This document shows positions 9,916 through 25,018 of a stretch of 54,332 nucleotides of DNA, piece after piece. The notes under the pieces are model-generated. The model saw only the letters and a list, made by a program, of their open reading frames with translations. It made no database searches and was not told the origin of the DNA. Within the stretch, counting starts at the first letter, position 1. Every line of letters begins with the position of its first letter. The translations under genes and the position numbers were made by a program. The stretch comes from Opitutus sp. (lineage in GTDB: Bacteria > Verrucomicrobiota > Verrucomicrobiia > Opitutales > Opitutaceae), in contig JANYAM010000189.1 of the NCBI GenBank assembly GCA_025361365.1, positions 1 through 54,332 of the forward strand, written 5' to 3'.

Positions 9916-10656
9916 ATGCTTCCCCATCCCACGCTGGCCACCCACTACGCCACGCCGGAGGCGAAGCCGGAGTTCGTCAACCAGCTATTCAATCGGGGGG
10001 CGGAACATTACGACGCGGTCGTGGACTGGGGCTTCCTGCGCAGCGGCGCCGCCTATCGCCACTGGACCCTGCAGCAGCACGGCCTGCGGCCGGGGCACCA
10101 CCTCCTCGACGTGGCCTGCGGCACCGGCCTCGTCGCCGTCGCCGCGGCGAAAATCCTCGGCACCGCCGAACACATCACCTGCCTCGACCCCAGCGCCGGC
10201 ATGCTGGGGATCGCCCGGACCAAGCTCGCCGCGACCTTCGTGCTCGGCCGCGCCGAGGCGCTGCCCTTCGCGGACCACTCCTTTGATTTTCTGACCATGG
10301 GCTATGCGCTGCGGCACGTGACCAGCCTGGAGGACACCTTCCGGGAATATCAGCGGGTGCTGAAGCCCGGCGGAAAGCTGCTGATCCTCGAGATCACCAA
10401 GCCGGCCGGCCGCGTGGGCGGATTTTTCTTCCGGCTCTACTTCCGCCACCTCTATCCTTTTCTCACCCGCCTGTTCACCCGCAGCACCGATGCCCGCGAC
10501 ATGATGCGCTATTATTGGGAGACCATGGATGCCTGCGTGCCTCCCGCCGCGGTCCTCGCGGCGCTGGCCGCTGCCGGCTTGACCGCGGTGAAGCGGAATG
10601 TCGTCCTCGGCCTTTTCAGCGAATACTCCGCGCTCAAGCCCGCCCTGTCCCCATGA
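9916..10656 (+). CDS. UbiE/COQ5-type SAM-dependent methyltransferase of the polyene-like cluster
   Basis: 246 residues from the ATG at 9916. The Rossmann methyltransferase core shows motif I LLDVACGTGL, an acidic SAM-ribose position in CLDPSAGMLG, and RVLKPGGKLLILE, typical of UbiE-like class I enzymes. In aryl-polyene and xanthomonadin pathways such enzymes methylate the aryl head group, and that is the inferred role here. The ATG at 9916 was chosen because the upstream extension is Pro/Ala-rich and non-conserved. Its stop overlaps the ATG of the first ACP (ATGA), so it is the first gene of a tightly coupled operon. Confidence 0.88.
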   Translation: MLPHPTLATHYATPEAKPEFVNQLFNRGAEHYDAVVDWGFLRSGAAYRHWTLQQHGLRPGHHLLDVACGTGLVAVAAAKILGTAEHITCLDPSAGMLGIARTKLAATFVLGRAEALPFADHSFDFLTMGYALRHVTSLEDTFREYQRVLKPGGKLLILEITKPAGRVGGFFFRLYFRHLYPFLTRLFTRSTDARDMMRYYWETMDACVPPAAVLAALAAAGLTAVKRNVVLGLFSEYSALKPALSP

Positions 10657-11027
10657 AAGCCACCGTCCACCAAGCCCCACCCGCCACTGACCAGGCGGAC
10701 CGGATCAAGCACCTGCCCGCCGAGGCCCGCGCCGCCTTCCAGCGGTTTCAGGCCGACCGCGACCCCGCTGCGCTTGACCCGGTGATCTTTGCGATCCTCG
10801 CCGACTTCATCCCGCGCAGCCCGGCTACGCCGCTGGCGGAACTGCCCGGCGAGACCCGCCTGATCGACGACCTGGGCTTTGACTCGCTCGCCATCACGGA
10901 AGTGGTCTTTTTCACCGAGGACCTGTTCGGCATCAGCATCACGAACGAGGAAATCATCCAGGTGCGCTCGCTCGCTGACTTGCAGCGTTTCATCCACGCC
11001 AAGGTCGGGGCCCGGCCCGCGCGCTGA
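10653..11027 (+). CDS. Acyl carrier protein (first of two)
   Basis: A 124-residue protein starting in an ATGA overlap with the methyltransferase gene. The carrier domain occupies about 42-120, and the phosphopantetheine attachment site is Ser78 in LIDDLGFDSLAITEV. The 40-residue N-terminal extension is unusual for a discrete ACP. In this pathway it would carry the aryl starter or the growing chain between the ketosynthases. It is followed after 17 nt by a ketosynthase gene. It differs clearly from a housekeeping AcpP, which is acidic and about 78 residues long. Confidence 0.92.
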   Translation: MKATVHQAPPATDQADRIKHLPAEARAAFQRFQADRDPAALDPVIFAILADFIPRSPATPLAELPGETRLIDDLGFDSLAITEVVFFTEDLFGISITNEEIIQVRSLADLQRFIHAKVGARPAR

Positions 11028-11044
11028 ACCTTTTCCCGCCTTGC

Positions 11045-12310
11045 ATGCCGTTCCTGCCCGTCATCACCGGCCTTGGCTTCATCACCAGCATCGGGCACGA
11101 CCGCGCCACCGTGGGCCGCAACCTGCGCGAACTGCGCCACGGGTTTGAGCCGGTCGAGTTCCTCGGCAACCCCAACCTGCCGGTCAAGGTCGCCGGCACC
11201 GTCAAGGGCTTCAGCTTCCCCTCGCCCAACTGGCGCGACTGGCGCTGGCCCGACAATTTCTCCGTCGATCGCGAGCTGATCCGCGGCCTCGCCCCACACG
11301 GCGTCTACGCAGTCTGCGCGCTGCAACAGGCGCTCGCCGAGGCCGGCCTCGACGCGGCGCAGCTGGGCGACGGCACGACGGGGTTGTTCTGCGCCTCCGC
11401 CGGCTCGCCGTTCATGCTCGGCAGTTTCCTCGAGCAGATGAAGGAAACCCGCGGCGAACGCGGCAACCCCATGGGCATCGTCTCCTCCATCGCGGGCACG
11501 TTGAACTTCAATCTCGCCGCGCATTACAAGATTTCCGGCGCGGTCTGCGGCTTCGTCTCCGCCTGCGCCTCGTCGAGCCACGCCCTCGGCTACGCCATGG
11601 ACGAGATCCGCCTCGGCCGCCAGTCGCGCATGCTCGTCATTGGCGCGGAGGACATGACCGCCGAGAGCATCGTCTCGTTCTCCAGCCTGCGCGCGCTCTC
11701 CAACAATCCCGACCCAGCCACGGCCTCGCGTCCCTTCGACCGCCGGCGCGACGGCTTCGTCGGCACCGGCGGCGCGGTCGCGCTGGTCGTCGAGGAGGCC
11801 GGGCTGGCCCGCCGCCGCGGCGCCCGCATCCAGGCCGAGCTCATCGGCTGGGGCCAGGCCGGCGACGGCCACAGCGTCGCCGCCTCGCACCCCGAGGGCG
11901 CCGGTTTGCGCGAGGCCATGCGCCGCACGCTCGCCGACGCGCAGGCGAACGCGGCCCAGGTTGGCTACGTCAACGCCCACGCCACCTCGACTCCCGCCGG
12001 CGATCGCTCCGAGGCGCTCGCACTCAAGGCGATCTTCACCGACCAGGGCGCCCGCCCCCGGGTCAGCAGCACCAAGGCGCTCACCGGCCACGGCCTGTCG
12101 CTCGCCGGCGCAATGGAGGCGGCGTTTTGCACACTCGCGATCGACGAGGCCTTCATTCCCGGCGCCGCCCACTTGGCGGAACCGGATCCCGTGTGCGCCG
12201 GCCTGGACCTGCCGCGCACGTCGCTTGACGCAGCCCCCGGCCTCGTGCTCAACAACAGCAGCGGCTTCGGCGGCAGCAATGTCTGCCATCTCCTCCGGGG
12301 CCCCGCCTGA
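11045..12310 (+). CDS. Beta-ketoacyl-ACP synthase (FabF/FabB type), catalytically intact
   Basis: 421 residues, full thiolase-fold ketosynthase length. The nucleophile is Cys174 in VSACASSSHAL. The catalytic His312 is in NAHATSTPAGD, and Lys344 and His349 are in TKALTGHGLSLAG, so the Cys-His-His triad is complete. It condenses malonyl-ACP with the aryl or acyl chain. It sits between two ACP genes (17 nt after the first, 6 nt before the second). The homologous role in aryl-polyene clusters is the elongating ketosynthase. Compared with housekeeping FabF the third motif reads HGLSLAG rather than HxLGAAG. Confidence 0.94.
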   Translation: MPFLPVITGLGFITSIGHDRATVGRNLRELRHGFEPVEFLGNPNLPVKVAGTVKGFSFPSPNWRDWRWPDNFSVDRELIRGLAPHGVYAVCALQQALAEAGLDAAQLGDGTTGLFCASAGSPFMLGSFLEQMKETRGERGNPMGIVSSIAGTLNFNLAAHYKISGAVCGFVSACASSSHALGYAMDEIRLGRQSRMLVIGAEDMTAESIVSFSSLRALSNNPDPATASRPFDRRRDGFVGTGGAVALVVEEAGLARRRGARIQAELIGWGQAGDGHSVAASHPEGAGLREAMRRTLADAQANAAQVGYVNAHATSTPAGDRSEALALKAIFTDQGARPRVSSTKALTGHGLSLAGAMEAAFCTLAIDEAFIPGAAHLAEPDPVCAGLDLPRTSLDAAPGLVLNNSSGFGGSNVCHLLRGPA

Positions 12311-12316
12311 TTTCTC

Positions 12317-12583
12317 ATGCCTGACCACCTGACGCTCCGCCTCAAAACCTTGATCATCACGACGCTCAAGCTCGATGGTGTCCGGCCGGAAGACATTCCG
12401 GACGACGAACCGTTGATCGGCTCGCCCCGCTTCGGCCTCGATTCGGTCGACGCACTCGAGATCGTGCTGGCGATCGAGAAGGAATTTAACGTCAAGATCG
12501 GCAGCAGCGAGGAATCGCGCCAGGCCCTCGCCACCATCAACACGCTCGCCGCCTACCTGCGCGCCCGCCCGCCCGGCGCCTGA
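12317..12583 (+). CDS. Acyl carrier protein (second of two)
   Basis: 88 residues, the typical length for a discrete ACP. The attachment serine is Ser43 in FGLDSVDALEIV, followed by the expected acidic recognition helix (EIVLAIEKEF). It starts 6 nt after the ketosynthase stop and ends 12 nt before the next ketosynthase, so it is translated as part of the operon. Aryl-polyene clusters normally carry two ACPs, one perhaps for priming and one for extension. That division of labour is inferred. Confidence 0.93.
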   Translation: MPDHLTLRLKTLIITTLKLDGVRPEDIPDDEPLIGSPRFGLDSVDALEIVLAIEKEFNVKIGSSEESRQALATINTLAAYLRARPPGA

Positions 12584-12595
12584 GCGGACCGCCGC

Positions 12596-13705
12596 ATGCC
12601 CGCCCCGGCCGACCAATTCTCCGCGGGCATCGCCGCCTGTGACTGCCTCACCCCGTTTGGTGACGCCACCGCCACCGCGGCCGCCCTCCTCGCGGGCCGG
12701 CGCGCGCTGGAGCTCAGCCCGGTGCTCGGCCGCGACGGCGGCGACCTTGTGCCGCTCGCGCTGACCGGGCCGATGGACGAGACGCTGCCGCCGCGCTGGC
12801 TGCCCGGCGTGCGCCGGCTGGCGGCCAGCATCCCCGCGGATGCGTGGGGCTCGGTCCGCACGCCCGTGATCGTCACGAGCAGCAACTTCGGCGTCGGCAG
12901 TCTTTATACTTTCACCCGCGACCGCGACACCCGCCACCTCGCGCACGGCACGCCCTTTGCCACCGGCGAGCTGCTCCGCACGGAGCTCGGCTGGGGCGAA
13001 CACGTGCATGTCTTCTCGCACGCCTGCGTCACGGCCCATCTCGGGCTCGCGCACGCCGCCCGGCTGCTGCACGCCGGCCTGGCCGACCGCGTGCTGGTCT
13101 TCTCCTTTGATTTCGTCAGCCAGTTTGTGGCCGGCGGTTTTCACAGCCTGAAGATCCTCAACGGCGGTTTCCCGGCGCCCTACAGCCGGGGCGAGACGGG
13201 CTCCATTGGTCTCGGCGATGGTGCGGCCTTTGCCGTGCTGACGCGCGACGCCACGCCTTTCCGTCTGGCGGCGCATGCGCTGCACAACGAGATGTTTCAC
13301 TTCACGGGCAATCAGCCGGACGGCGCCGGCTTCGCCGTGTGCGCGGCGGCGATTGCCTCCGCCGCGGGCGGGCGGCGCGTCTGGGTCAAGGGCCACGGCA
13401 CCGGCACGCTGGAGACCGGCCGCCTGGAGTCCGAGGTCATCGCCCGGCAGTTTCCCGGCGCACCACTCACCGGCTGGAAGGGCAGCCTCGGCCACACGTT
13501 GGGCAGCTGCGGACTCGTGGAGCTCGCGCTCGCGCTCGCCGCGCTCCGCGGCGGACGCATTCCCGGCACGGTCGGCGGCACCGCGCCAAGTTTCACTGGC
13601 ACTGTCGCACTCGAGCCGTTCGCGAGCGCGGAATATGATGGCGCCATCCTGACCGCCAACGCATTCGGCGGCGCCCACGCCGCGATGCTGCTCACCCATG
13701 ATTGA
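12596..13705 (+). CDS. Second beta-ketoacyl synthase of the cluster
   Basis: 369 residues, shorter than the first ketosynthase (421). The residues of a working enzyme are retained: Cys144 in FSHACVTAHLG, His267 in VKGHGTGTLETG, Lys295 and His300 in WKGSLGHTLGSCG. It therefore does not look like a dead chain-length factor. It may act as an initiation or second-stage elongation ketosynthase, or pair with the neighbouring ketosynthase. It is 12 nt downstream of the second ACP and overlaps the next gene by 8 nt. Confidence 0.9.
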   Translation: MPAPADQFSAGIAACDCLTPFGDATATAAALLAGRRALELSPVLGRDGGDLVPLALTGPMDETLPPRWLPGVRRLAASIPADAWGSVRTPVIVTSSNFGVGSLYTFTRDRDTRHLAHGTPFATGELLRTELGWGEHVHVFSHACVTAHLGLAHAARLLHAGLADRVLVFSFDFVSQFVAGGFHSLKILNGGFPAPYSRGETGSIGLGDGAAFAVLTRDATPFRLAAHALHNEMFHFTGNQPDGAGFAVCAAAIASAAGGRRVWVKGHGTGTLETGRLESEVIARQFPGAPLTGWKGSLGHTLGSCGLVELALALAALRGGRIPGTVGGTAPSFTGTVALEPFASAEYDGAILTANAFGGAHAAMLLTHD

Positions 13706-14354
13706 GCGCTACCTCCATTATATAGGCACCGAGCTGCCGGCCCCGGACGAGACGGCGGCTGGCGCCCGTGTCCGGCTGGCGGACAAATTCCCGCGCACGG
13801 CTCTGCGGCGGATGACGCACCTCGGCCTGCTGCTCGGCTCGACGCTGGAGGGCGCCGCGCCCGGGCCGGAAGATGCGCTGGTCTATGCGTCCACTTTCGC
13901 TGAGACGCGCGCGCTGGAGGATTTCCTGCAGAGTTTTCCGGCAGCCAGCCCGCTCCTCTTCCAAACCTCGATTCATCCCGGCGGCGTGCAACAGGTGCTC
14001 ATCGGCCGGCAGCAACCCGTCGCCCGCCTCTGGCCGCTCGCCGGCCGGACGCGCCTCGTCGAGCAGGCGTTATTGACCGCGTTGCTCGAGCCGGCGACGC
14101 GGGTCGTGCTCGCCGGCGGTGAGGAACGCGGCAGCTGGCTGCTCGATCACGCCATGGCCTCGGCCCGGGCCTTTGCTTTCGCCGCGGTCCTGACGCGCGA
14201 GCCGGCCGGTGCGACGGGCCGCGTCACCTTCACCCCGGGTTCGGTGTCTGATGAAGCTTGCCCGACCCTGGAAAACTTCACCGCGGCCCTCGCCCGCCGC
14301 CAGCCGCTGCGCTGGAGCGGCGCCGGCGGCGTCTGGACCCTCGCCTGGCTATGA
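13698..14354 (+). CDS. Ketosynthase-like N-terminal-domain protein (PF13723 type), non-catalytic
   Basis: 218 residues resembling only the N-terminal half of a ketosynthase: PAPDETAAGARVRLADKFPRT, then a strand-helix pattern with FAETRALEDFLQ and FQTSIHPGGVQQ. It lacks the Cys nucleophile and both catalytic histidines. Small proteins of this type (Ketoacyl-synt_2) are regular members of aryl-polyene clusters, often called chain-length factor. It probably pairs with one of the two upstream ketosynthases. Start and stop overlap both neighbours (8 nt and ATGA), indicating coupled translation. Confidence 0.8.
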   Translation: MIERYLHYIGTELPAPDETAAGARVRLADKFPRTALRRMTHLGLLLGSTLEGAAPGPEDALVYASTFAETRALEDFLQSFPAASPLLFQTSIHPGGVQQVLIGRQQPVARLWPLAGRTRLVEQALLTALLEPATRVVLAGGEERGSWLLDHAMASARAFAFAAVLTREPAGATGRVTFTPGSVSDEACPTLENFTAALARRQPLRWSGAGGVWTLAWL

Positions 14355-15259
14355 GCACTCCGGCTCCACTCCTGCGTAATCCCGGCCCGAGCTGGGGCTA
14401 TGGTTTTCTCCTGTGGGCGGAGCGGTGGTGGCCGCGCTGGTTTTTCCGCCCGGTGCTGATGGCCGGCACCTGGGTCGGGCTCGTGTTCATGCCGGCGCAG
14501 CGCGCGCATTCGCGCGCCTACCTCGCCGTCGTGCTCGGTCGGCCGCCGCGGTTGCTCGAGGTCTGGCGGCATTTCTTTGCCTTTGCGGACTCCCTGATGC
14601 TCAAGCTCCGCGCCGGGCGTGGCGTGCCGCTGCCGCGCACGGTGGCGCCCGAAAATGCCGAGGCGCTCGAGGCGCTCATCACCTCCGGCCGGCCGGCGCT
14701 GTTCGGCTCGTTCCATTTCGGCCACTCCGACCTGCTGGGCTACATGCTCAGCGCCCGCGGGCGGCCGGTGTCCATCCTCCGCCTGCGCATCGGCAACGCC
14801 ACGGACACCCGCCTGCTGGGCGAGCGGTTCGGCGACAAGGTTTCCTTCCTGTGGGTCAACGATCCCGCCAACCTGCTCTTCGACCTGAAGGCGGCCATCG
14901 AGGGGGGCGCCTCGCTAGCCCTGAAATGCGACCGCCTGGAATTTTCGACGCGCAACGAGCCGTTTGATTTCCTCGGCGCGCGCCGGCTGTTCCCGTTCGC
15001 GATCTACAACCTCGCCCTGCTCTTCGACCGGCCGGTGGTCTTCTGCTGGTCGGTGCCGGATGGAACCGAGAACGGCATGCTCATCCTGTCTTCACCGGTC
15101 TTCACCCCCAATCCGGCGGCCGACCGCCTGGCCAACAAGGAAACGGCGCGCCGGCATTTCCAAGCCGTGCTCACGCAGTTGGAGGGGCTCGTGCGCCAAC
15201 ATCCGTATCTGTGGTTCAATTTCCTGCCGCTGAACCCCGAGGCTCCCGCGGCTCGCTAA
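14351..15259 (+). CDS. LpxL/HtrB-like lysophospholipid acyltransferase
   Basis: 302 residues starting in an ATGA overlap with the previous gene. The protein resembles LpxL/HtrB acyltransferases: GSFHFGHSDLLGYML carries the HxxxxD-type catalytic motif, with a central ALKCDRLEFSTRN and a hydrophobic N-terminal region (FRPVLMAGTWVGLVFM) near the membrane. Aryl-polyene clusters carry a homologous acyltransferase, thought to attach the polyene to a lipid anchor. It is not the housekeeping lipid A enzyme, judging by location. Confidence 0.87.
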   Translation: MSTPAPLLRNPGPSWGYGFLLWAERWWPRWFFRPVLMAGTWVGLVFMPAQRAHSRAYLAVVLGRPPRLLEVWRHFFAFADSLMLKLRAGRGVPLPRTVAPENAEALEALITSGRPALFGSFHFGHSDLLGYMLSARGRPVSILRLRIGNATDTRLLGERFGDKVSFLWVNDPANLLFDLKAAIEGGASLALKCDRLEFSTRNEPFDFLGARRLFPFAIYNLALLFDRPVVFCWSVPDGTENGMLILSSPVFTPNPAADRLANKETARRHFQAVLTQLEGLVRQHPYLWFNFLPLNPEAPAAR

Positions 15260-15276
15260 CGCGGCACCATCTCCGC

Positions 15277-16053
15277 ATGTCCCTTCGTTCGGTCTACCAA
15301 CTGCCGGCGTATTACGCCACCTTGCTGCTCTTCGGGGTCTGTGGCCTCGAACTCAGCCTGTTCGGGTTGTTGTGCAGTTGGCTGCCGGCGACCGATGGCA
15401 TCGAGCGTTTTTTCCAACGGCTGATTCACCGGCATTTCGCTTTCTTTCATTGGTGGTGCGAGGCCCTGCACCTGGTTTATGTGCGCTATGAGGGCTTTGA
15501 CCGCCTGCCCCGCGGTGGTGCGGTGCTGGTCGCCAACCATGTTTCCCTCATCGACATCACCTGCCTGCTGGCCCGCATTCTCGAGGCCGTGTGCATTTTC
15601 AAGCCGGCCATCCGTCGCAATCCCGTCCTCGGCGCCGCCGCCCGCCGCGCCGGTTATCTCGGCAGCGACCTCGGGCACGAGGGCGTCCGCTCCGCCGCGA
15701 CCAAGGTGGCGGCCGGCCACCTGCTCGTCGTTTTTCCCGAGGGCACGCGCCGGCCGCCGGGCAGCACCTTGCTGCCCTTCAAGCCGGGCTTTGTGATCAT
15801 TGCCCAGCGCGCCCACGCCCCGATCCAACTCGTGCGGATCGTCACCGATTCCGACGTCCTCACCAAGGGCCGGCCCGGCTGGAAGCTGCCGCGGTTTCCC
15901 GCCCACATCACGGTGACCGCCGGCCCGTTGCTCGCCGCGGACCGGACCGCCAGCGCGGCGGCGTTGTCCGCGGAAATCGAGGCTTGGTTCCGCTCGCCCC
16001 CGGCCGGTGACCCGGCTTGCACGCCACTGGCCGTCCCGCAATCCTCGGATTGA
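15277..16053 (+). CDS. PlsC-like 1-acyl-glycerol-3-phosphate acyltransferase
   Basis: 258 residues from the ATG at 15277. A hydrophobic N-terminal segment (ATLLLFGVCGLELSLFGLL) probably embeds it in the membrane. The catalytic motif NHVSLID (N87, H88, D93) and FPEGTR (153-158) are the PlsC signatures. With the LpxL-like enzyme before it, the operon has two different acyltransferases, which fits transfer of a polyene acyl group to a lipid. Spacing is 17 nt upstream and 9 nt to the glycosyltransferase gene. Confidence 0.92.
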   Translation: MSLRSVYQLPAYYATLLLFGVCGLELSLFGLLCSWLPATDGIERFFQRLIHRHFAFFHWWCEALHLVYVRYEGFDRLPRGGAVLVANHVSLIDITCLLARILEAVCIFKPAIRRNPVLGAAARRAGYLGSDLGHEGVRSAATKVAAGHLLVVFPEGTRRPPGSTLLPFKPGFVIIAQRAHAPIQLVRIVTDSDVLTKGRPGWKLPRFPAHITVTAGPLLAADRTASAAALSAEIEAWFRSPPAGDPACTPLAVPQSSD

Positions 16054-16062
16054 TTTCCGGCC

Positions 16063-17466
16063 ATGACCGTCTCCGCCACCCACCTCGTCCTCCTGCCGAC
16101 CTACAACACCGGTCCGCGGCTGCGCGAAGTCGTAGCCGAGGTGCTGCGCCACTGGCAGCCGGTGCTGGTCGTCGTGGACGGCAGCACCGACGGCAGCGAA
16201 CAACCCATCCTGGAGTTGGCGAAAACCGAACCGGCCCTCACCGTGCTGGTGCTCCCCCACAATTCCGGCAAGGGCGCGGCCGTGCTCGCCGGCGCGCAGG
16301 CCGCCGCGGACCGCGGCTTCACCCATGCGCTGGTGATGGACGCGGACGGCCAACACCCGGCCGGCAGCATCGCGGAATTCATGGCCGCTTCACTCCGTGA
16401 ACCCGCCGTGCTCGTGCTGGGCCGGCCGGTCTTTCCCGCCAACATTCCCGCCGAGCGCTTGCACGGCCGGAAGCTCAGCGTCGGGCTCGTGCATTTCGAG
16501 CTGCTGGGCGCCGGCGTCGCCGACCCGCTGTTCGGGTTCCGCGTCTATCCGCTCGCGCCGCTGCTCGCCGTGCTCGGTCCGCGCCGCGGCGGACGCCGCT
16601 ACGACTTCGACACGGAAGCCGCCGTGCGGCTCGCCTGGGCCGGCGTGACGCCGCGCAACCTCGCGGCGCCGGTCCGTTATTTCTCCCGCGCCGAGGGCGG
16701 CGTGTCGCACTTCCATTATGTGCGCGACAACCTCACGCTGGTCTGGATGCACACCCGCCTCATCGTCGAACTGCTCTTCTGGCGCTGGCCCGCGCTGCTC
16801 CGGCACCGCCGGCAGTGGACGGCCGCGGGGGCGGCGCTGGCCGTCCTGCTCGTCTGCGCCACGCTGGGCCGCGCGGCCGAAGCCGATCCGTTGGTCAACC
16901 CGGAGCACCGGCTGCCGCCCGCGGCCCCGGCATGGAGCGACCTGGTCGAGACCTTTGCGCACCAGCCCGACACCGCCGCGGACTTCACTGAGCGCCGGCA
17001 ATTCCCCTTCAAGAAGGATCCGGTCGAACTGCAGGGTGAGGTGCGCGTCTCCGTCGCGCGCGGCCTGAGCCTCCACTATCTGGTGCCCGAGGAACGCACG
17101 GTGATCCTGGACGAACAGGGCATGCTGATCCGGGCGCGCGCCGGGGAAAAAGCCCCGCCGGCCGATCCGCGCGCCACCGCCGCCAACGAGGCGCTGCGGC
17201 ACATCCTGCGCTTCGAGTTCGCCGCCTTGGAGAAGGATTTCGAGCTCTACGGCCAGCGCGACGGCGTCGCCTGGACCCTCGCGCTCGTTCCGCGCACCGC
17301 CGCGCTGCGCGGGAGCATCGGCCGGATCACCGTCACCGGCGGGGCCGCCGCGATCCACCGGATCGAGCTGCGCCGCTCGGCGAAACAGGTCATCGAGATC
17401 CTCATCGCCCCGCCCCGTCCGCCGGCGGCGTTCACGGCCGAGGAACTGAGAACGTATTTCCGCTGA
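16063..17466 (+). CDS. Family-2 glycosyltransferase fused to a periplasmic LolA-like domain
   Basis: 467 residues in two parts. Residues 1-245 form a GT2 domain with the nucleotide-sugar motifs VVDGSTDGS and VMDADGQHP, and GRRYDFDTEA. Residues 253-270 form a hydrophobic segment (GAALAVLLVCATLG) that looks like a former signal peptide. Residues about 288-467 are LolA-like: TAADFTERRQFPF, then PVELQGEVRVSV and the acceptor pattern LHYLVPEERTVILDEQG. The topology would be GT in the cytoplasm and LolA in the periplasm. In related clusters these are separate genes. There is no internal start with a ribosome site, so it appears to be a true fusion. It precedes the exporter by 3 nt. Confidence 0.86.
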   Translation: MTVSATHLVLLPTYNTGPRLREVVAEVLRHWQPVLVVVDGSTDGSEQPILELAKTEPALTVLVLPHNSGKGAAVLAGAQAAADRGFTHALVMDADGQHPAGSIAEFMAASLREPAVLVLGRPVFPANIPAERLHGRKLSVGLVHFELLGAGVADPLFGFRVYPLAPLLAVLGPRRGGRRYDFDTEAAVRLAWAGVTPRNLAAPVRYFSRAEGGVSHFHYVRDNLTLVWMHTRLIVELLFWRWPALLRHRRQWTAAGAALAVLLVCATLGRAAEADPLVNPEHRLPPAAPAWSDLVETFAHQPDTAADFTERRQFPFKKDPVELQGEVRVSVARGLSLHYLVPEERTVILDEQGMLIRARAGEKAPPADPRATAANEALRHILRFEFAALEKDFELYGQRDGVAWTLALVPRTAALRGSIGRITVTGGAAAIHRIELRRSAKQVIEILIAPPRPPAAFTAEELRTYFR

Positions 17467-17469
17467 CCG

Positions 17470-19815
17470 ATGACCTTCCGCCGCCGCCAACTCCTGGGCT
17501 GGAGCGTCCTTGCCGGCGCGGCACTGCTCGGCGGCGCGTGGCTGCTGCAGCTCGATTACGGCCGGAAGATTTCCAGCGACGTCCTCGATCTCATCCCCGT
17601 CGACGAGCGGGCGCCGGAGTTGACGCTGGTTCGCTCGCTCGCCAGCCAGGCGGAGGCCCGGACGATGTTCTTCGAGCTGACGACGAACGGCCAACCCGCT
17701 CCCGCCGCCGCAACGGCCCGCTTCGCCACCGAGCTGGGCCGCGATCCGGCCTTCGACCAGGTCGTGGCCATGAATGATCCCGCCATGCGCGAATCGCTCG
17801 GCCGCGAACTGTTTGCGCAGCGCTTCACGCTGTTGTTTCCCCTCTGGTTGGGTGAACGCACCTCCGCCTATGCCCGCACGAGTGGCGAGCCCGCGGGATT
17901 TTCCGACTGGCTGGCGAAGGACACCGCCGCCGCGCTCGGGCGGTTTCTGTCCACCCCCGAGGCGCTGGCTTTCCAGGAAGTTATTCCATCTGACCCGCTG
18001 CTGCTGCTGCCCGGCGCCGTCGACCGCTTGAAGGATGGCCTGTCGCTGGTCCAACCCGCGGCCACGTCCGCCCACCCGCCCGCGCTGGTGTGGGCGCGGC
18101 TCGCCGCTTCGCCGCTCAGCGAGGCGGGCCAGGCCCCGGCGTTCGCCGCGATCGAGCGCGCCGCCGCGACGGTGCGGGCGGAACACCCGGGCTTCGCCGT
18201 CGCCTATTCCGGCGTGAACCGTTTCGCCGCCGCCAGCCGGGCGCGGATCGAGCACGAGGTCACGTGGCTCAACGCGCTTTCGCTCGCGGCCGTGCTGGCC
18301 GTGGCGTTCCTCTTCATCCGCGGCGTGCATCGCGGCCTGCACCTCCTACCCGTCGTCGGCCTGTCGATCCTCGGCGCCTGGGTGGGCGCGACCCTCGTCT
18401 TCGACCGGCTGCACATCATGGTGTTCGTGGTCGGGTCGCTGCTGACCGGCGTCGCGATCGACTACGGCTTCTATCTCTTCATGCAGCCGCCGGCCGGGCC
18501 CAACGAGGATTACTGGGCCAAGGTCCGCCGCCTGGCCAAGCCGCTGCTCGCGAGCTGCCTCACGACCGTCGCCGGTTTCGCGCTGCTGCTTTTCTCGGAG
18601 CTGCCCTTTATCCGCCAGCTCGGCGTCTTTGTCGGCGCCGGCCTGCTCTGCGCGCTGGCGGCGGCGGTGGTTTATTTCTCCACGGTTAAAAATCCTTTCC
18701 TCGAGACCCGCACCTTCCGGGGCGGGGCGGCGCTGCCGGACGGCGTGCGCCGCGGGCTGCGCCGGCTGCTCATCGCGGTCTGGATCGTCGCGCTGCCGGG
18801 ACTGGCGCTGCTGCAGTGGAAGGACGACATCCGCGAACTGGACATCCCTTCACCCGAGCTCAAGCGCGAGCATGCCCGCATCAGCGCCCTGTTCGGCGAA
18901 GAGGACGACAAGACCGTTTACCTCACCTACGGCAGCAGCGTCGCCGAGGCGCGCGCTGCGCTGGCCAAGCTCGAGGCCTGGCTCGCCTCCGCCGAGGGCG
19001 GCCGCACGCCGGGCATCGGGCTTGGCGCCGTGGTGCCGACTGCGGAAGCGCATGCCGCCGCGGTCCGCTTTGCACGGGAGCATCCGGAATTTTCCGACCG
19101 ACTGCGCGCGGCGTTGACCGCGGGCGGTTTTGACGCGACGGAATTTGCGCCGTTCTTCGACGCCTACGCCCGGCACGTCGCGAGCGCCGCGGACGCCGAC
19201 TACGAATCAGCCCTCGCCGGCCTGCAGGCGAAGCTCACGGGGCCGATCGGTCTGCTGCTGCACACCGGCCAGCCGCTGAGCTGGTTCGTCACCCTCGTGC
19301 GCACGGCGCCCGCGCTAGCGCCGCCGGCCGAGACCCGCACCGTCAGCTCCGGCCAGCTGCAGACGCTCAACCGGCTTTTCAGCCGCTACCGCCAATCCGC
19401 GCTGGGGCTGAGCCTGACGGGTCTCGCGATCGTCGGCGCCGGCGTGTTCCTCACCTACGGCTGGCGCGATGGCGCGCGGATTTTCGCCATCCCGTGCGGG
19501 GCGTGCCTCGGCCTGTTCGGCCTGTTCGGCTGGTTCGGGCATCCGCTCAACCTGTTCCACCTGCTCGGCGCCTTCCTCGGCGTGTGCCTTACGCACAATT
19601 ACTCGATCTTCTCCGCCACCTCGGCCTACAGTCACGAGCCGCCGCCGGTGTCGGTGCGGTTGTCCGCGCTAACGGCCGCCGCCTCCTTCGGCGTGCTCGC
19701 CCTCAGCGGCATCCCGGTGGTGCGCGCACTCGGCTCGACCGTGGCGCTGATGGTGGTCGTCGCGCTGCTAGTGATCGAATTCGAGCATCTGGCGGGACTC
19801 GGAAAAAAACCATGA
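17470..19815 (+). CDS. MMPL/RND-superfamily exporter
   Basis: 781 residues with the RND/MMPL layout: one N-terminal membrane segment (about 8-25), a large periplasmic loop, then five more membrane segments, and a repeat of this pattern (about 12 in total). Typical features are GVAIDYGFYLFM with the family acidic residue in transmembrane segment 4, and GVCLTHNYSIF at the equivalent site in the second half. In xanthomonadin and aryl-polyene clusters this protein moves the lipid-linked polyene across the inner membrane, and the fused LolA domain of the preceding gene would receive it. It overlaps the ligase start (ATGA). Confidence 0.92.
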   Translation: MTFRRRQLLGWSVLAGAALLGGAWLLQLDYGRKISSDVLDLIPVDERAPELTLVRSLASQAEARTMFFELTTNGQPAPAAATARFATELGRDPAFDQVVAMNDPAMRESLGRELFAQRFTLLFPLWLGERTSAYARTSGEPAGFSDWLAKDTAAALGRFLSTPEALAFQEVIPSDPLLLLPGAVDRLKDGLSLVQPAATSAHPPALVWARLAASPLSEAGQAPAFAAIERAAATVRAEHPGFAVAYSGVNRFAAASRARIEHEVTWLNALSLAAVLAVAFLFIRGVHRGLHLLPVVGLSILGAWVGATLVFDRLHIMVFVVGSLLTGVAIDYGFYLFMQPPAGPNEDYWAKVRRLAKPLLASCLTTVAGFALLLFSELPFIRQLGVFVGAGLLCALAAAVVYFSTVKNPFLETRTFRGGAALPDGVRRGLRRLLIAVWIVALPGLALLQWKDDIRELDIPSPELKREHARISALFGEEDDKTVYLTYGSSVAEARAALAKLEAWLASAEGGRTPGIGLGAVVPTAEAHAAAVRFAREHPEFSDRLRAALTAGGFDATEFAPFFDAYARHVASAADADYESALAGLQAKLTGPIGLLLHTGQPLSWFVTLVRTAPALAPPAETRTVSSGQLQTLNRLFSRYRQSALGLSLTGLAIVGAGVFLTYGWRDGARIFAIPCGACLGLFGLFGWFGHPLNLFHLLGAFLGVCLTHNYSIFSATSAYSHEPPPVSVRLSALTAAASFGVLALSGIPVVRALGSTVALMVVVALLVIEFEHLAGLGKKP

Positions 19816-21134
19816 GCCGCGCGCTGCTCCAAGCCTGGACGAAAACCCTGCGCCGGCACGGCGCGGACCGCGCCATCGTGGAGGCGGCCGGCGGCACCGC
19901 GGTGACCTTCAGCGAACTGGACGTCCGCGCCGGCGCCTGGCTGCACCGGCACGCGCCGGACCCGGCGCGGCTGCGCGGCCGGGCCGTGGTCTTCGCTGCG
20001 CCCAACGGCGTCGGCTGGGTCGAAGTTTTCCTCGGCCTGCTCAAGGCCGGCGCGGTCGCGGTGCCGCTCGATGCCGGCGAACCCCCGGCGGCGCAGCGCC
20101 GACTCGCGGAGTCGTTGCACGCCGCCGGCTGGTGGGATGGCACGAGGCTGGTGGCCCTGCCGGGCGCGAAACGTTACCGCGACCCGGCGATCTGCATCGT
20201 CAAGCTGACCTCCGGCACGACCGGCCAGCCGCGCCAGCTGGCCTTCACGGACAAGCAGCTGCTGGTCGACACCCGGCAGATCACGGCGACGATGGGCTTC
20301 GGGCGGCGCGACCTGAACTACGCGTTGATCCCCTTCGGCCATTCCTACGGCCTCGCCAGCCTCGTGGTGCCGCTGCTCGCGCAGGGCGTGCCGTTGGTCG
20401 GCGGCACCGCGCCGTTGCCGCACGCCATCGCCGCGGATTTCGCCCGGTGGCGGCCGACCGTGTTTCCCGGCGTGCCGGCGATGTGGCGGGCGCTGGCGGC
20501 CTCGGACCTCACGCTGCCCGGCCTGCGCCTCGCCATTTCCGCCGGCGCCCCGCTGCCACCGGAAGTGGCGCGGGATTTCGCCGCCCGCCTCGGCCAGCGC
20601 GTGCACAGTTTCTACGGCTCAAGTGAAACGGGCGGCATCAGCTATGACCGGACCGGCGACGGCGCACTCGCGGGCAACGTCGGTCGGGCCCTGCGCGGGG
20701 TGAAACTCACCGCGCGGCCGGGCCAGCGGTTGCAGGTGAGCAGTGCCGCCGTGCTGAGCCACGGCAACCGCCACCCCGGCCGCTGGATCATGCCGGACCG
20801 CGTGCAACTGGCGGCGAGCGGCACCGTGACGCTGCTGGGCCGCCGCGGGAAGACGGTGAAGATCGCCGGCCGGCGCGTGAATCTCGCCGAGGTGTCCGAC
20901 CGGCTGCGGCGTTTGCCGGACGTGCGCGAAGTATGGGTGGGCGCCAGTCCCGGGGCCGAGCCGGTGCTCGGCGCTGTGGTCGCCACCAGGCGGAGCGCGG
21001 CCGACCTGCGGGCCGCGTTGCTCGCCGACACGGCGCCCTGGAAAATTCCCAAGAAACTGATCACTGTCACCGCCCTGCCCCTGACCGCCCGCGGCAAGAC
21101 CGACACGCGGGCGCTGCTGGCGATGACGTTCTGA
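19812..21134 (+). CDS. Acyl/aryl AMP-ligase (ANL family)
   Basis: 440 residues, compact for the adenylate-forming family. The P-loop LTSGTTGQP (132-140), YGSSETGG (268-275) and the C-terminal catalytic Lys429 (ARGKTDTRAL) are present. The expected reaction activates an aryl acid, probably 3- or 4-hydroxybenzoate, with ATP and loads it onto an ACP. This assignment follows from the adjacent chorismatase. It is the last gene of the operon. Its stop codon abuts the stop of the convergent chorismatase gene within TGATCA. Confidence 0.88.
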   Translation: MSRALLQAWTKTLRRHGADRAIVEAAGGTAVTFSELDVRAGAWLHRHAPDPARLRGRAVVFAAPNGVGWVEVFLGLLKAGAVAVPLDAGEPPAAQRRLAESLHAAGWWDGTRLVALPGAKRYRDPAICIVKLTSGTTGQPRQLAFTDKQLLVDTRQITATMGFGRRDLNYALIPFGHSYGLASLVVPLLAQGVPLVGGTAPLPHAIAADFARWRPTVFPGVPAMWRALAASDLTLPGLRLAISAGAPLPPEVARDFAARLGQRVHSFYGSSETGGISYDRTGDGALAGNVGRALRGVKLTARPGQRLQVSSAAVLSHGNRHPGRWIMPDRVQLAASGTVTLLGRRGKTVKIAGRRVNLAEVSDRLRRLPDVREVWVGASPGAEPVLGAVVATRRSAADLRAALLADTAPWKIPKKLITVTALPLTARGKTDTRALLAMTF

Positions 21135-22058
21135 TCAGCGGAGGCCAGGGACGCCGAAGAGCGAGGCCTCAATCTCGACCCGCAGCGCGGTGCGGCAGAT
21201 GTCGGCCTGCACGTAGGAGACCCGATCCGTGTCCGTCAGGAACTGCTCCTGCAAAAGGGCGGCGACCATCGGCTGGTCCGCCGCGTGGCGGAGGTAAATC
21301 TTGAAATGGCGCGTGGCGCCGGAGCCGGCGGCCAGGCCCGGCCCCAGCCCACAGGCCGCGGAGAGCGCCGCCAGGTTTTCGAGCGCGCACTCCAGTTGCA
21401 GGCGCGTGCTGTGCGGGGCGATCGTGGCATGGCCGCGGATCGCCGCGGTGCCGGAAATGAAAACCGTGGCGGACTCCGGTCCCGCCACCACCGTCGCCCG
21501 GGCGAAGCTCGGCGCCCGCGGACCGTAGTCCGGCGGATAATCGTAGGCCGGCACCTGCAGCGGATTCTCGACGTGGCGCAGCGCCCCGGGGCAGGCGGCG
21601 AAGGCGACCGTCAGCGTCGCCGCCTTGCTGCCCACCGCGGACGCGGACGGCAGGAGGACCTTGAACCCGCGGCCGTAGTGTTGCTCGAAGGCCAGCGAGC
21701 GGCCGCGGCAGAAAGCCCGGTAATTCTCCAGCCCCTCCGGGCCCGTCTCATTGATGGCCGGGATGTAATTCCAGATCCGGGCGAGATGCTGCCCCCGCGT
21801 GGCGACGAAAATATCGCGGTAGAGATCGTGCGCGGCGATTTCCAAGCCGGCCCCAAACGGCACCGTGGCGGCCCCGAGCAACCAGCCCTGCGCCTCGAAC
21901 AGCGCCAGCACCCCCACCCGGCCGGCCGGCCGCGCCGCGCCGAATAATTCCTCCACCGTCTCACCCGCGAGCACCGGCAGCCCGGCGTCGAAAACGCCGG
22001 TGCCGTCCGCCCCCAGGGTGATGCGCAACGGCGGTAGTTCGGCGGTGGCGGTCGTCAT
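21135..22058 (-). CDS. Chorismatase-family enzyme (XanB2/Hyg5/FkbO-like), makes hydroxybenzoate
   Basis: 307 residues from the ATG at 22058; the longer reading frame upstream is a shadow of the next gene. The family hallmark RIWNYIPAIN (94-103) and YRAFCRGRSLAFEQHYG (113-129) are clear, as is GTAAIRGHAT in the C-terminal half. Members cleave chorismate to 3-hydroxybenzoate (Hyg5, XanB2), 4-hydroxybenzoate (XanB2) or a dihydroxy-diene acid (FkbO). XanB2 supplies the starter for xanthomonadin. Which product this enzyme makes cannot be read with certainty. It stands convergent to the biosynthetic operon and is followed upstream by a TVP38 gene in the same orientation. Confidence 0.88.
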   Translation of the reverse strand: MTTATAELPPLRITLGADGTGVFDAGLPVLAGETVEELFGAARPAGRVGVLALFEAQGWLLGAATVPFGAGLEIAAHDLYRDIFVATRGQHLARIWNYIPAINETGPEGLENYRAFCRGRSLAFEQHYGRGFKVLLPSASAVGSKAATLTVAFAACPGALRHVENPLQVPAYDYPPDYGPRAPSFARATVVAGPESATVFISGTAAIRGHATIAPHSTRLQLECALENLAALSAACGLGPGLAAGSGATRHFKIYLRHAADQPMVAALLQEQFLTDTDRVSYVQADICRTALRVEIEASLFGVPGLR

Positions 22059-22093: not shown

Positions 22094-22792
22094 TCAATCC
22101 CGCGCGGCGACCGCGGCCACGCGCCGGGCCGTGCGTTGCCGCAGCAATTGCAACGCCGCCACGCTGATCACGAGGACGCCCATGGCCACGAAGGCCAGCC
22201 GGCCGTTGCCTTCCATGACCGCCTCGCCGCCCGCGACGATGGCCACGATGTAGCCGGCCATCACCAGCAGGGAGACGACCAGATACGGCACCAGCGGCAC
22301 GCGGATCAGCCCGAGCAAATAGCTTTGCACCCAGAACGGCGGCCCCGGGGTCAGGCGCACGATCAGCGCCAGCTGCCACGCCCCGCCGGCCGGCGTGTCG
22401 GGCAAGCTGAAGCCGCACCAGGCCAGCAGCCGGCTCACGAGCGGACGCAGCGCACGGTTCGCCAGCCAGTAGGTCAGCAGCAGGTTGAAAAGCACCGCAG
22501 TCAAGGACCAGCCAATCACTGCGGTGGTTCCCAAGGTCGGCCCAAACACCGGGCCGGCGGCCAGCGTGAACGCCATCAGCGGGAAACCCGCGGCCGGCAG
22601 CAGCGCCATCGCCACGAAGAAAACCCCCGGGCCCGCCTCGCGCAGCGCCAGGATCACGGTGTTGACCGCCGCGCGCAGGTCGTAATGCAGCGCCACCAAG
22701 ACCGCGATGCCCGCGCCCGCGGCCAGGCCGGCGAGGAGCAGGAGGTGTCTTTTTTTCCAGCGACGGGCGGGAGGGGACGGAAGGGTTTCCAT
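22094..22792 (-). CDS. TVP38/TMEM64-family integral membrane protein
   Basis: 232 residues with about six membrane segments. The start at 22792 was chosen to match the basic N-terminus METLPSPPARRWKKR before the first segment. The family core is visible as FPLMAFTLAAGPVFGPTLGT followed by LLTYWLANR and RLTPGPPFWVQSYLLGL. These proteins (DedA/VTT-domain superfamily) are scramblase-like or transport proteins. It ends 35 nt before the chorismatase gene, likely its operon partner. A role in lipid or polyene precursor traffic is an inference from location. Confidence 0.87.
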   Translation of the reverse strand: METLPSPPARRWKKRHLLLLAGLAAGAGIAVLVALHYDLRAAVNTVILALREAGPGVFFVAMALLPAAGFPLMAFTLAAGPVFGPTLGTTAVIGWSLTAVLFNLLLTYWLANRALRPLVSRLLAWCGFSLPDTPAGGAWQLALIVRLTPGPPFWVQSYLLGLIRVPLVPYLVVSLLVMAGYIVAIVAGGEAVMEGNGRLAFVAMGVLVISVAALQLLRQRTARRVAAVAARD

Positions 22793-23520: not shown

Positions 23521-24111
23521 ATGTCTCCCTTGATCAAGTCACTCCTGTTGGGTTCCCTCCTCGCGCTCGCGGCCCGCGCGGCCGAGCCCGCGCCGCTGGC
23601 GCCGTGGGCCACCAGCGCGCTGAACGTCGAGTCGGGCGTGCTCTGGGAAATCGGCACCGGCACCACCATCGCCTACCGGCTCGTGCCGACACAGCTGGCG
23701 TGGCGCTCGAAGGCCGCTCTCGATCATGTCTTCGCCGACGGCTCGCGGATCGTCGTCCGCCACCGGCTGGCGCTGATCGGCACCTGGATCGAAAACGGGC
23801 CGGAGTCGCATTACGTCGGTTTCTCCGGTTCGCCCTCCGTCGAGTGGTGGGACCCGAGCGGCCGGTGGTCGCTGTTCACCGGCTCCGGCGGCGGCGCCGG
23901 GTTGATTGACTCACGCGGCGTCCGCTGGGGCCAGGGCCAGGACTTCACGTTCAACTGGTTCATCCGCGGCGGTCTCGAGCACGTCACGGCCAAGGACCAG
24001 CGGTTCAGCGCCGGTATCATGTATCAGCACATGTCGAATGGCGGGCAAACGAAGCCCAATCCCGGCATCGACGCGCTGGGCTTCACGCTCGGCTATTCCT
24101 GGGTGTTCTGA
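23521..24111 (+). CDS. PagL-like lipid A 3-O-deacylase (acyloxyacyl hydrolase family)
   Basis: 196 residues starting at 23521 with a signal peptide (about 1-21). The C-terminal part alternates into beta strands and ends in Tyr-Ser-Trp-Val-Phe, as in outer-membrane barrels. The active-site region YQHMSNGGQTKPNPGID carries His170 and Ser172, the PagL catalytic pair, with a downstream NPGID. Such enzymes trim an acyl chain from lipid A in the outer membrane and so change surface properties. The next gene is a polysaccharide deacetylase. Confidence 0.88.
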   Translation: MSPLIKSLLLGSLLALAARAAEPAPLAPWATSALNVESGVLWEIGTGTTIAYRLVPTQLAWRSKAALDHVFADGSRIVVRHRLALIGTWIENGPESHYVGFSGSPSVEWWDPSGRWSLFTGSGGGAGLIDSRGVRWGQGQDFTFNWFIRGGLEHVTAKDQRFSAGIMYQHMSNGGQTKPNPGIDALGFTLGYSWVF

Positions 24112-24259: not shown

Positions 24260-25018
24260 ATGTGGGTCCTGCTCATTATCAACCTGGCCGGCAAGGCGGC
24301 CGCCCTGCTCGTCGGCTGGAGCGCGCCGGCCGCCGGCCTGGCGCTGTGGTTCGGACCCGACCTGCTGCTCGCCTACCATATCTTCGTGCCGAACGCGCAG
24401 GGCTTGGTGCGGATGCACCGGCGCTTCGCCACGGCGCGGCGCGAGGTGTGGCTGACCCTTGACGACGGTCCCGACCCGGCGGACACGCCGCAAATCCTCG
24501 AGCTGCTCGCCGCCGAGGGCGCGCACGCGACGTTCTTTGTGATCGGGGAAAGGGCCGCCGCGCATCCCGCCCTCATCCGCGCGATCGTCGCCGCCGGGCA
24601 CGAGGTCGCGCACCATACCCACACGCATCCTCTCGCCACCTTCTGGTGCGCCTCGCCGGGCCGGGTGGCGCGGGAACTTGACGACGGCCTGGCGGCGTTG
24701 CGCGCCGCCGGGGTGACCCCGACCCGCTTTCGCCCGCCGGCCGGGATCAAGAGTCTCTGGCTGCCCGCCGCGTTGCGCGCCCGCGCCCTCACCAGTGTAG
24801 GCTGGAGCGCCCGCGGCCTCGAACACTGGCCGGGCGGCGTCGAGGCGGTCGCCGCGCGCACGCTGCGCGGCCTGGCCCCGGGGGCGATCCTCTTGCTGCA
24901 CGAAGGCCCGCGCGTGCCGGCGGCGATCCGCGTTCACGCCCTCCGCCGCGTGCTCGAACGATTGCGCGAGCAGGGCTACCAATGTGTCGTGCCCGCCGCC
25001 GGTCAGCTGGCGGACTGA
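24260..25018 (+). CDS. Polysaccharide deacetylase (NodB homology domain), membrane-anchored
   Basis: 252 residues with hydrophobic N-terminal segments (about 1-45) before the NodB domain. The catalytic motifs are TLDDGPDP (D68-D69) and HTHTH (119-123), the zinc His pair, with RPPAGIK as the substrate motif. The ATG at 24260 was used; a TTG 15 nt upstream is possible. The enzyme removes acetyl groups from a GlcNAc polymer or a lipid-linked sugar in the envelope. It overlaps the convergent PAP2 gene by 16 nt and follows the PagL-like gene, suggesting a small envelope-modification group. Confidence 0.92.
   Translation: MWVLLIINLAGKAAALLVGWSAPAAGLALWFGPDLLLAYHIFVPNAQGLVRMHRRFATARREVWLTLDDGPDPADTPQILELLAAEGAHATFFVIGERAAAHPALIRAIVAAGHEVAHHTHTHPLATFWCASPGRVARELDDGLAALRAAGVTPTRFRPPAGIKSLWLPAALRARALTSVGWSARGLEHWPGGVEAVAARTLRGLAPGAILLLHEGPRVPAAIRVHALRRVLERLREQGYQCVVPAAGQLAD

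Follow-up and report, generated by a model that had tools for sequence, protein, structure and literature searches.

A probable chorismatase-primed aryl-polyene cluster in an Opitutus contig that lacks ketoreductase, dehydratase and thioesterase genes

The window considered here is the whole of contig C17 (54,332 bp) from the draft genome of an Opitutus sp. (3.56 Mb in 297 contigs, 99.7% complete), and the subject is a gene cluster at positions 9916-22058 that resembles the clusters for aryl polyenes (APE). Eleven open reading frames (ORFs) on the + strand (9916-21134) are followed there by an opposed chorismatase gene (21135-22058, -). Gene prediction and family scans (Pfam and NCBIfam, on predicted ORFs) recover every cluster gene named in a preliminary description of this DNA. 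An assembly artefact or a contig-edge effect was rejected, since the cluster lies in the interior of C17. It is most likely a lineage-specific variant of the aryl-polyene cluster that is served in trans. Its genes, with acyl carrier protein abbreviated as ACP and ketosynthase as KS, are as follows.

9916-10656, +: UbiE-type S-adenosylmethionine (SAM) methyltransferase (PF01209, E 2.8e-32; best NCBIfam UbiE model below cut-off)
10653-11027, +: ACP1, N-terminally extended (PP-binding, E 1.8e-5)
11045-12310, +: KS1, FabB/FabF-type ketosynthase in the ApeR role (PF00109/PF02801)
12317-12583, +: ACP2 (PP-binding, E 5.4e-8)
12596-13705, +: KS2, ApeO-like elongating ketosynthase (best PDB matches 7f28_B, 6qsp_A)
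13698-14354, +: ApeC-like chain-length factor (CLF), 218 aa (no Pfam or NCBIfam match; PDB matches 7f28_A, 6qsp_B)
14351-15259, +: PatA/LpxM-type membrane acyltransferase, LpxL-like, 302 aa (PF03279, E 0.026, weak)
15277-16053, +: PlsC-type acyltransferase (PF01553, E 1.2e-16)
16063-17466, +: fusion of a GT2 glycosyltransferase and a LolA-like carrier (PF00535, E 1.5e-18; PF19574, LolA_3, E 7.1e-7)
17470-19815, +: MMPL/RND-type exporter (PF03176, E 1.1e-10)
19812-21134, +: AMP-forming ligase, predicted to fill the ApeH role of loading hydroxybenzoate onto an ACP (PF00501, E 1.2e-36)
21135-22058, -: chorismatase of the FkbO/Hyg5 family (TIGR04444, 193.6 bits, below the cut-off of 325; PF21168)

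The aryl-polyene type proposed in the preliminary description is supported by KS2 and the 218-aa ORF beside it. Both the best and the second-best PDB match of KS2 are ApeO, and its C144, H267 and H300 are invariant in 29 aligned rows. A 28-row profile of the 218-aa ORF meets two PDB sequences up to E 10, namely 7f28_A (4.8e-7) and 6qsp_B (1.1e-5). 7f28_A is ApeC according to PMC8358021, and 6qsp_B is ApeC by the annotation of structure 6QSP among the Foldseek matches. A predicted model of the ORF (predicted local distance difference test score, pLDDT, 94.8) has 6qsp_B as its top Foldseek match (2.6e-9). As judged by profile and model, the ORF is an ApeC-like chain-length factor. KS2 and this ORF are both present in 34 of 34 fetched loci, and in L076 (genome G024, 11028-12959) they form one 644-aa open frame, which, provided that the sequence is correct, would be a naturally fused KS-CLF. 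Because the two match ApeO and ApeC, co-occur and share a frame in that relative, the cluster belongs with the aryl-polyene type II synthases.

Other features of such synthases are also present. They include two ACPs and a second, FabB-like KS in the places of ApeE, ApeF and ApeR, and genes for lipid attachment and outer-membrane transport (acyltransferases, GT2, LolA, MMPL). A ligase of the AMP-binding family is encoded as well and may take the place of ApeH, with hydroxybenzoate as its putative substrate. Identification of KS1 as ApeR by PDB rank was rejected as not distinctive: its matches are led by FabB/FabF, with ApeR (7f27) far down, and KS1 is FabB/FabF-like without being specially close to ApeR. 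The 302-aa acyltransferase has a predicted model (pLDDT 93.4) for which Foldseek gives PatA (4.8e-12) and LpxM (9e-11), and the GT2 and LolA parts are two separate matches in many relatives. The methyltransferase, for which head-group methylation as by ApeB is possible, is found in 32 of 115 locus rows, that is, the window and 114 loci of relatives, 80 of them named, with several contigs represented twice and many rows cut by contig ends. ApeN was not recognised among the family-scanned cluster ORFs.

No short-chain dehydrogenase/reductase (SDR), FabA/FabZ or thioesterase family was found among the cluster ORFs by the scans, and tblastn of the window with seven SDR, three dehydratase and one thioesterase queries found none either; both results confirm the absence of ketoreductase (KR), dehydratase (DH) and thioesterase reported in the preliminary description. 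ApeQ and ApeK therefore have no counterpart in the cluster (a 4HBT protein lies at C19:3673-4074), and for ApeI and ApeP none was found in the cluster or the genome. Three defining features of an aryl-polyene cluster were thus tested and found lacking, so that this is not a standard one. In the genome, PF07977 occurs at three places: an LpxC-FabZ-like 485-aa frame (C232), FabZ (C32) and an ACP-dehydratase fusion (C19). The Pfam models of ApeI and ApeP give one sub-threshold match each, both on C232, and profiles made from Opitutales ApeI and ApeP recover only the C232, C32 and C19 genes. A search for unclustered ApeI/ApeP-type genes, suggested in the preliminary description, thus found none of that type with either set of models, and yielded an unlinked locus on C19 and C24 with ACP-dehydratase, KS, KR and a nearby 4HBT thioesterase. 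KR or DH genes immediately beyond the window or in a second operon linked to the cluster, which would have made the cluster a standard one, were not found in this genome.

Among the relatives, tblastn over the 115 rows (seven SDR and three dehydratase queries) found no SDR within the stretch that the core genes span, in any of the rows. SDRs occur in seven rows and dehydratases in L222 and L238, the latter being the outgroup genes described below. As linked KRs, the SDRs of L072, L206 and L208 were rejected, as they lie beyond unrelated genes on the other strand; that of L184 is ~6.8 kb upstream of the first cluster gene. The SDR of L196 (15475-16182) stands 169 bp beyond the chorismatase and has sepiapterin reductase as its nearest PDB match, and that of L086=L255 (G095) stands ~0.8 kb beyond MMPL on the other strand. 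Homologues of these two occur elsewhere in the window's genome, at 68% on C70 for the L196 SDR and at 51% on C101 for the G095 SDR. They are read, without proof, as chance neighbours, because of these homologues and the sepiapterin reductase match. The C70 homologue is cut by the end of its contig.

In outgroup Opitutales (Pelagicoccus, Cerasicoccus and several metagenome-assembled genomes, MAGs), ApeI-like and ApeP-like genes sit in fixed slots of the same cluster. An ORF of 99-114 aa with GHF-x3-P-x2-P lies between PlsC and GT2 in 10 of 91 measurable rows (L082, L083, L084, L085, L222, L238, L240, L246, L248 and L252, where L246 and L084 are one contig), and an ORF of 137-144 aa with LPH...E..AQ lies between MMPL and the ligase in 9 of 66 (L240 excepted). 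In the window both slots are closed, with a PlsC-GT2 gap of 9 bp and an MMPL-ligase gap of 0, as they are in the single-contig G012 and G024 (L063, L076). PF07977 missed the outgroup proteins save for one sub-threshold match, so profiles of our own were made (8 and 9 rows). With a limit of E 1, PF22817 matches all eight ApeP-like members (best 4.9e-8) and PF22818 matches all six scanned ApeI-like ORFs, none of the latter exceeding the cut-off of the model. The best PDB match of the ApeP-like profile is 6qsr_B (1.6e-19), and those of the ApeI-like profile are 3esi (6.7e-14) and 6qsr_A (1.8e-11); we take 6QSR to be the ApeI/ApeP pair. A conserved His occurs in one of the two proteins and a conserved Glu in the other, a split that fits the published heterodimer of ApeI and ApeP with a single active site (PMC8041823).

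The window's family comprises 73 of the 115 genomes searched, the window's own included. Across the 37 genomes with a strong KS2 match (E at most 3e-107), ApeP-like matches below 1e-49 and ApeI-like matches below 1e-25 appear only in G075, G080, G091 and G092, all outside the family; all four contributed profile rows and match strongly by construction, which weighs against the contrast. The independent case, G112, has diverged ApeI (1e-11) and ApeP (3e-5) matches no stronger than FabZ-type ones. Of the seven cluster-bearing genomes that do not belong to the family, four have ApeI and ApeP by profile (five if the diverged G112 is counted), and the profile search found them in none of the 30 inside it, where all matches fall on FabA-family genes save three at E 0.08-0.09. 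The reductive gap is lineage-wide, a new observation. The in-cluster pair was probably lost in the ancestor of the family; G110, with neither gene by profile, most simply lost them separately. A shortened ApeP-like remnant, judged by eye, lies upstream of the ligase in G095 (L277, about 5080-5660, on G095:C31) and is possibly a snapshot of the loss. Proteins that look by eye like B12-binding radical-SAM enzymes occupy the MMPL-ligase position, where outgroups have ApeP, in six rows (L094, L095, L218, L219, L227, L229), and occur in or beside the cluster in L074, L081 and L090-L092.

With two core genes lost, no strong KS2 match in 78 of the 115 genomes and a remnant such as that of G095, it could be asked whether the cluster is simply decaying and makes nothing. 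This is very improbable: the window ORFs are open, between-species dN/dS is 0.11-0.34 for ten window genes (simple Nei-Gojobori estimates against L063 and/or L064, with PlsC and GT2-LolA left out), and the same gene order is found in many genera. By these ratios, the ten tested genes are under purifying selection.

The preliminary description had offered two readings of the gap, namely that the missing steps come from elsewhere in the genome or that the product is not a polyene, and the first has gained over the second. The outgroup clusters keep ApeI and ApeP without a KR (~10 kb on either side was seen), and a dehydratase has nothing to act on unless a reductase works before it; supply of a KR in trans would thus already hold for these outgroups, whose dehydratases would otherwise be idle, and supply from elsewhere is accordingly the better supported reading. 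The other reading, in which an unreduced or partly reduced hydroxybenzoyl polyketide is attached to lipid and exported, would account for the lack of KR and DH in the cluster and of ApeI/ApeP-type genes in the genome. However, no cyclase or aromatase family was found among the scanned cluster ORFs, two dehydratases are retained in outgroup clusters that are built alike, which makes it probable that the ancestral product was reduced, and the rest of the cluster keeps its gene order after the loss. Such a product is quite unlikely.

For the starter, a hydroxybenzoate had been proposed from a XanB2-like chorismatase. A profile of the window's chorismatase matches 5ag3 in the PDB at E 6e-70 (also its variant 5a3k) and FkbO (4bps) at 1.4e-60; 5ag3 and 5a3k, which bear the PDB name pteridine-dependent dioxygenase, are presumably Hyg5. 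Cys288, Gly203 and Glu295 are invariant in 21 of 21 aligned sequences. In Hyg5 the catalytic Glu is E334, and the CH-II residues are Cys-318, Gly-231 and Gly-164 in Nat-hyg5 (PMC7170507). When residues are mapped to Nat-hyg5 numbering through the Hyg5 alignment, the catalytic Glu and the CH-II Cys and Gly of hydroxybenzoate-forming chorismatases (CH-II/CH-III) are present; the position of Gly-164 is Ala141 in the window and Ala in most homologues, and FkbO has Ala at the first two CH-II positions. The predicted product may thus be either 3- or 4-hydroxybenzoate, and the class either CH-II or CH-III.

Over the 115 genomes, KS2 and chorismatase (strong match at E at most 3.1e-37, 37 genomes) are both present in 34, KS2 alone in 3 (G010, G022, G070), chorismatase alone in 3 (G008, G048, G109) and neither in 75 (Fisher 3e-22, genomes being counted without kinship correction). 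Not counted were the weaker KS matches of 26 genomes, which reach 2.8e-19 at best and were attributed to other ketosynthases, and the weak chorismatase matches of G025 and G106. Because chorismatase and cluster co-occur, hydroxybenzoate priming by chorismatase and ligase is, on comparative grounds, well supported; this part of the earlier proposal stands, while likeness to XanB2 is not established, the Cys and Gly being of Hyg5 type. An accidental neighbour, with some other starter in use, might be suspected from the opposite strand of the chorismatase gene and from its presence in only 71 of 115 locus rows, though many of these are cut by contig ends. This is scarcely probable, as the co-occurrence extends to genomes in which chorismatase and KS2 sit on separate contigs (G027, G095, G112) or at a distance of 0.8 Mb from each other (G065). 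Chorismatase and ligase genes also adjoin where they are separate from the KS genes (L074, L078, L276-L279). In G027, the cluster is split between KS2-ApeC-LolA on C3 (L072) and PlsC-GT2-MMPL-ligase-chorismatase on C2 (L279).

Altogether, the cluster is best read, with a probability of about 0.7, as an aryl-polyene assembly line that is primed by the chorismatase and has its reductive half encoded outside the cluster. The chorismatase would convert chorismate to hydroxybenzoate, which the AMP-ligase would load onto an ACP, and KS1 and the ApeO/ApeC-like pair would elongate it with malonyl units. Enzymes whose genes lie in other parts of the genome would reduce the beta-keto group at each step and then dehydrate it. 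The polyene acid would reach a lipid through both acyltransferases and the glycosyltransferase, and LolA and MMPL would move it outward. All of this chemistry, the supply in trans and the identity of the supplier we infer from genes and their comparison.

The leading candidate for the supplier is the unlinked locus on C19 and C24, here locus B. C19 ends after the ACP-dehydratase fusion and a KS, and C24 starts inside an SDR, followed by a glycosyltransferase (GT). The two contigs are inferred to join into one locus, because G012 has these genes on a single contig as one run, ACP-DH, KS, KR and GT, flanked on the opposite side by a 4HBT thioesterase and a further GT. The set of ACP-DH, KS, KR and GT was found in 10 of 10 family loci examined, drawn from the 68 family genomes with a near full-length ACP-DH, and the thioesterase in 8 of 10. 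The locus-B KS of G012 shares 56% identity with KS1 and 29% with FabF; of the paralogues compared, the locus-B KS is the one closest to KS1. In a KS tree, KS1 and locus-B KS join in one group, separate from FabF and the KSs of C32 and C128 (99/98). KS1_L075 sits with the locus-B sequences, which means that the KS1 sequences do not form a single clean group, and the row KS1_L027 is the locus-B KS of the window's own genome, a duplicate. ACP1 of G012, G043 and G047 matches the ACP half of the C19 fusion at 33-36%. When L272-L275 are compared with L127-L136, the core ACP-DH/KS/GT locus includes an SDR in the family, and the outgroup loci L274 and L275 have none.

Several observations weigh against the reading or against locus B as its supplier. 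A near full-length locus B occurs in 85 of the 115 genomes, with and without the cluster, and in 68 of the 73 family genomes, cluster-free ones such as G003 and G023 among them; its co-occurrence with the cluster is not informative, and it must have a function of its own, because genomes without the cluster have it too. Outgroup loci lack its KR (L274, L275), G110 has neither ApeI/ApeP nor a KR in locus B, and in G095 neither ApeI nor locus B nor an intact ApeP is seen. The 40 PDB matches that the locus-B KR has at E 1e-15 or better do not include AbApeQ (6NRP). The window's genome holds 18 SDR matches, so that other KR candidates exist, and SDRs flank the cluster in L196 and G095. Colonies of Congregicoccus parvus are whitish-yellow, turning slightly yellow with time (PMC12193912), a colour compatible with a polyene but weak as evidence, being no more than whitish-yellow. 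Locus B as supplier is tentatively put at somewhat below an even chance, a figure lowered slightly because of the flanking SDRs; its link to the cluster is a hypothesis.

A broader proposal is that the Opitutaceae have a split aryl-polyene synthase, in which an accessory cluster for priming, condensing and export, having discarded its dehydratase pair, uses a core lipid operon, and in which that operon encodes a carrier-dehydratase fusion and a reductase gained in this family. Taken jointly, these claims are possible rather than probable. Alternatively, there may be no dedicated partner, the ACPs being served promiscuously by the housekeeping FabG (C296), FabZ (LpxC-FabZ-like C232 or C32) or other SDRs. 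Such genes are all present in the genome, and G080 keeps ApeI/ApeP and shows no locus-B ACP-DH, so its KR must come from elsewhere. However, FabG of Acinetobacter baumannii was reported unable to substitute for ApeQ in vitro (PMC8041823), which disfavours simple borrowing from fatty-acid synthesis, in one species only, and housekeeping supply is unlikely.

C32 also encodes a separate cluster (L026, 7424-15404) with KS, ACP, two carotenoid-isomerase/desaturase-like FAD enzymes, FabZ, a FabI-like reductase, a KASIII and a haloalkane-dehalogenase-like hydrolase, the last two of which we take to be OleA-like and OleB-like. Next to the window's cluster lie the following genes.

22094-22792, -: VTT/DedA-type membrane protein (PF09335, below cut-off), adjoining the cluster in 28 of 115 rows, the window included
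23530-24111, +: PagL-type outer-membrane protein (PF09411), a neighbour in 13 of 115 rows
24260-25018, +: polysaccharide deacetylase (PF01522), a neighbour in 29 of 115 rows

Genes of these three types and PAP2 genes recur near the cluster in part of the relatives. Tryptophan-halogenase-like FAD enzymes, of which one was scanned (L073), adjoin it in 30 of 115 rows (among them L073, L075, L078, L080, L083-L085, L087 and L222) and not in the window, which suggests halogenated head groups in those relatives.

Compared with the APE clusters (ApeA-R) of Escherichia coli CFT073, Xenorhabdus doucetiae and A. baumannii, the window shares the ApeO/ApeC pair, a second KS, two ACPs, AMP-ligase, acyltransferases, glycosyltransferase, LolA, RND-type exporter and methyltransferase. 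The E. coli cluster includes ApeQ, ApeI, ApeP and ApeK (Table 1, PMC8253772), all of which the window's cluster is without, as it is of a recognised ApeN. It has a chorismatase, whereas E. coli APE is said to use UbiC. With xanthomonadin (Xanthomonas, Lysobacter) and arcuflavin (Azoarcus sp. BH72), it has in common chorismatase and AMP-ligase as the first two steps, ACP, KS, a CLF-like protein, acyltransferase, LolA and exporter; those clusters contain a ketoreductase and dehydratase(s), and the window's has none. Chorismatase and AMP-ligase are known as the first steps of arcuflavin (PMC3949708), so that this mode of priming is not new, and the Azoarcus genes lie in more than one cluster, a polysaccharide deacetylase among them (PMC3949708). 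No resorcinol-type gene was found among the scanned window cluster ORFs. Also close in make-up are Pelagicoccus sp. SDUM812002 (L222), Cerasicoccus arenae KCTC 12870 (L248) and MAGs, with the same core genes in the same order around KS2; they keep the ApeI-like (PlsC-GT2) and ApeP-like (MMPL-ligase) genes, whereas the window does not.

In the available portions of the literature, aryl polyenes of Verrucomicrobiota and Opitutales are mostly automatic predictions (Oceaniferula, Congregicoccus, Opitutales of the Cephalotes gut). One of these is antiSMASH 'arylpolyene' region 4 of C. parvus ASA1, 5,402,678-5,443,805 (PMC10927696), and the KS2 of G033, at 5.42 Mb, falls inside its coordinates. C. 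parvus ASA1 is placed in Alterococcaceae by its authors, whereas G033 was grouped here in the window's family. The same portions of these predictions, region 4 included, do not discuss the missing reductive genes.

Among bacterial biosynthetic clusters, those for aryl polyenes have been described as the most abundant family, and two APE clusters that were tested were shown to hold every gene needed (PMC8253772). Against this background, the family offers a natural experiment, as it is without the dehydratase pair while selection maintains the other genes. Because one FabG was reported unable to replace ApeQ, the supplier is a real question, and identifying the enzymes that serve the cluster would reveal by what means a type II polyketide line can borrow its reductive cycle. 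Prediction of reduction level from a cluster can mislead, as this one, taken alone, would be called non-reducing. If the split-synthase proposal is true, a pigment pathway of the Opitutaceae would share the reductive cycle of another lipid pathway.

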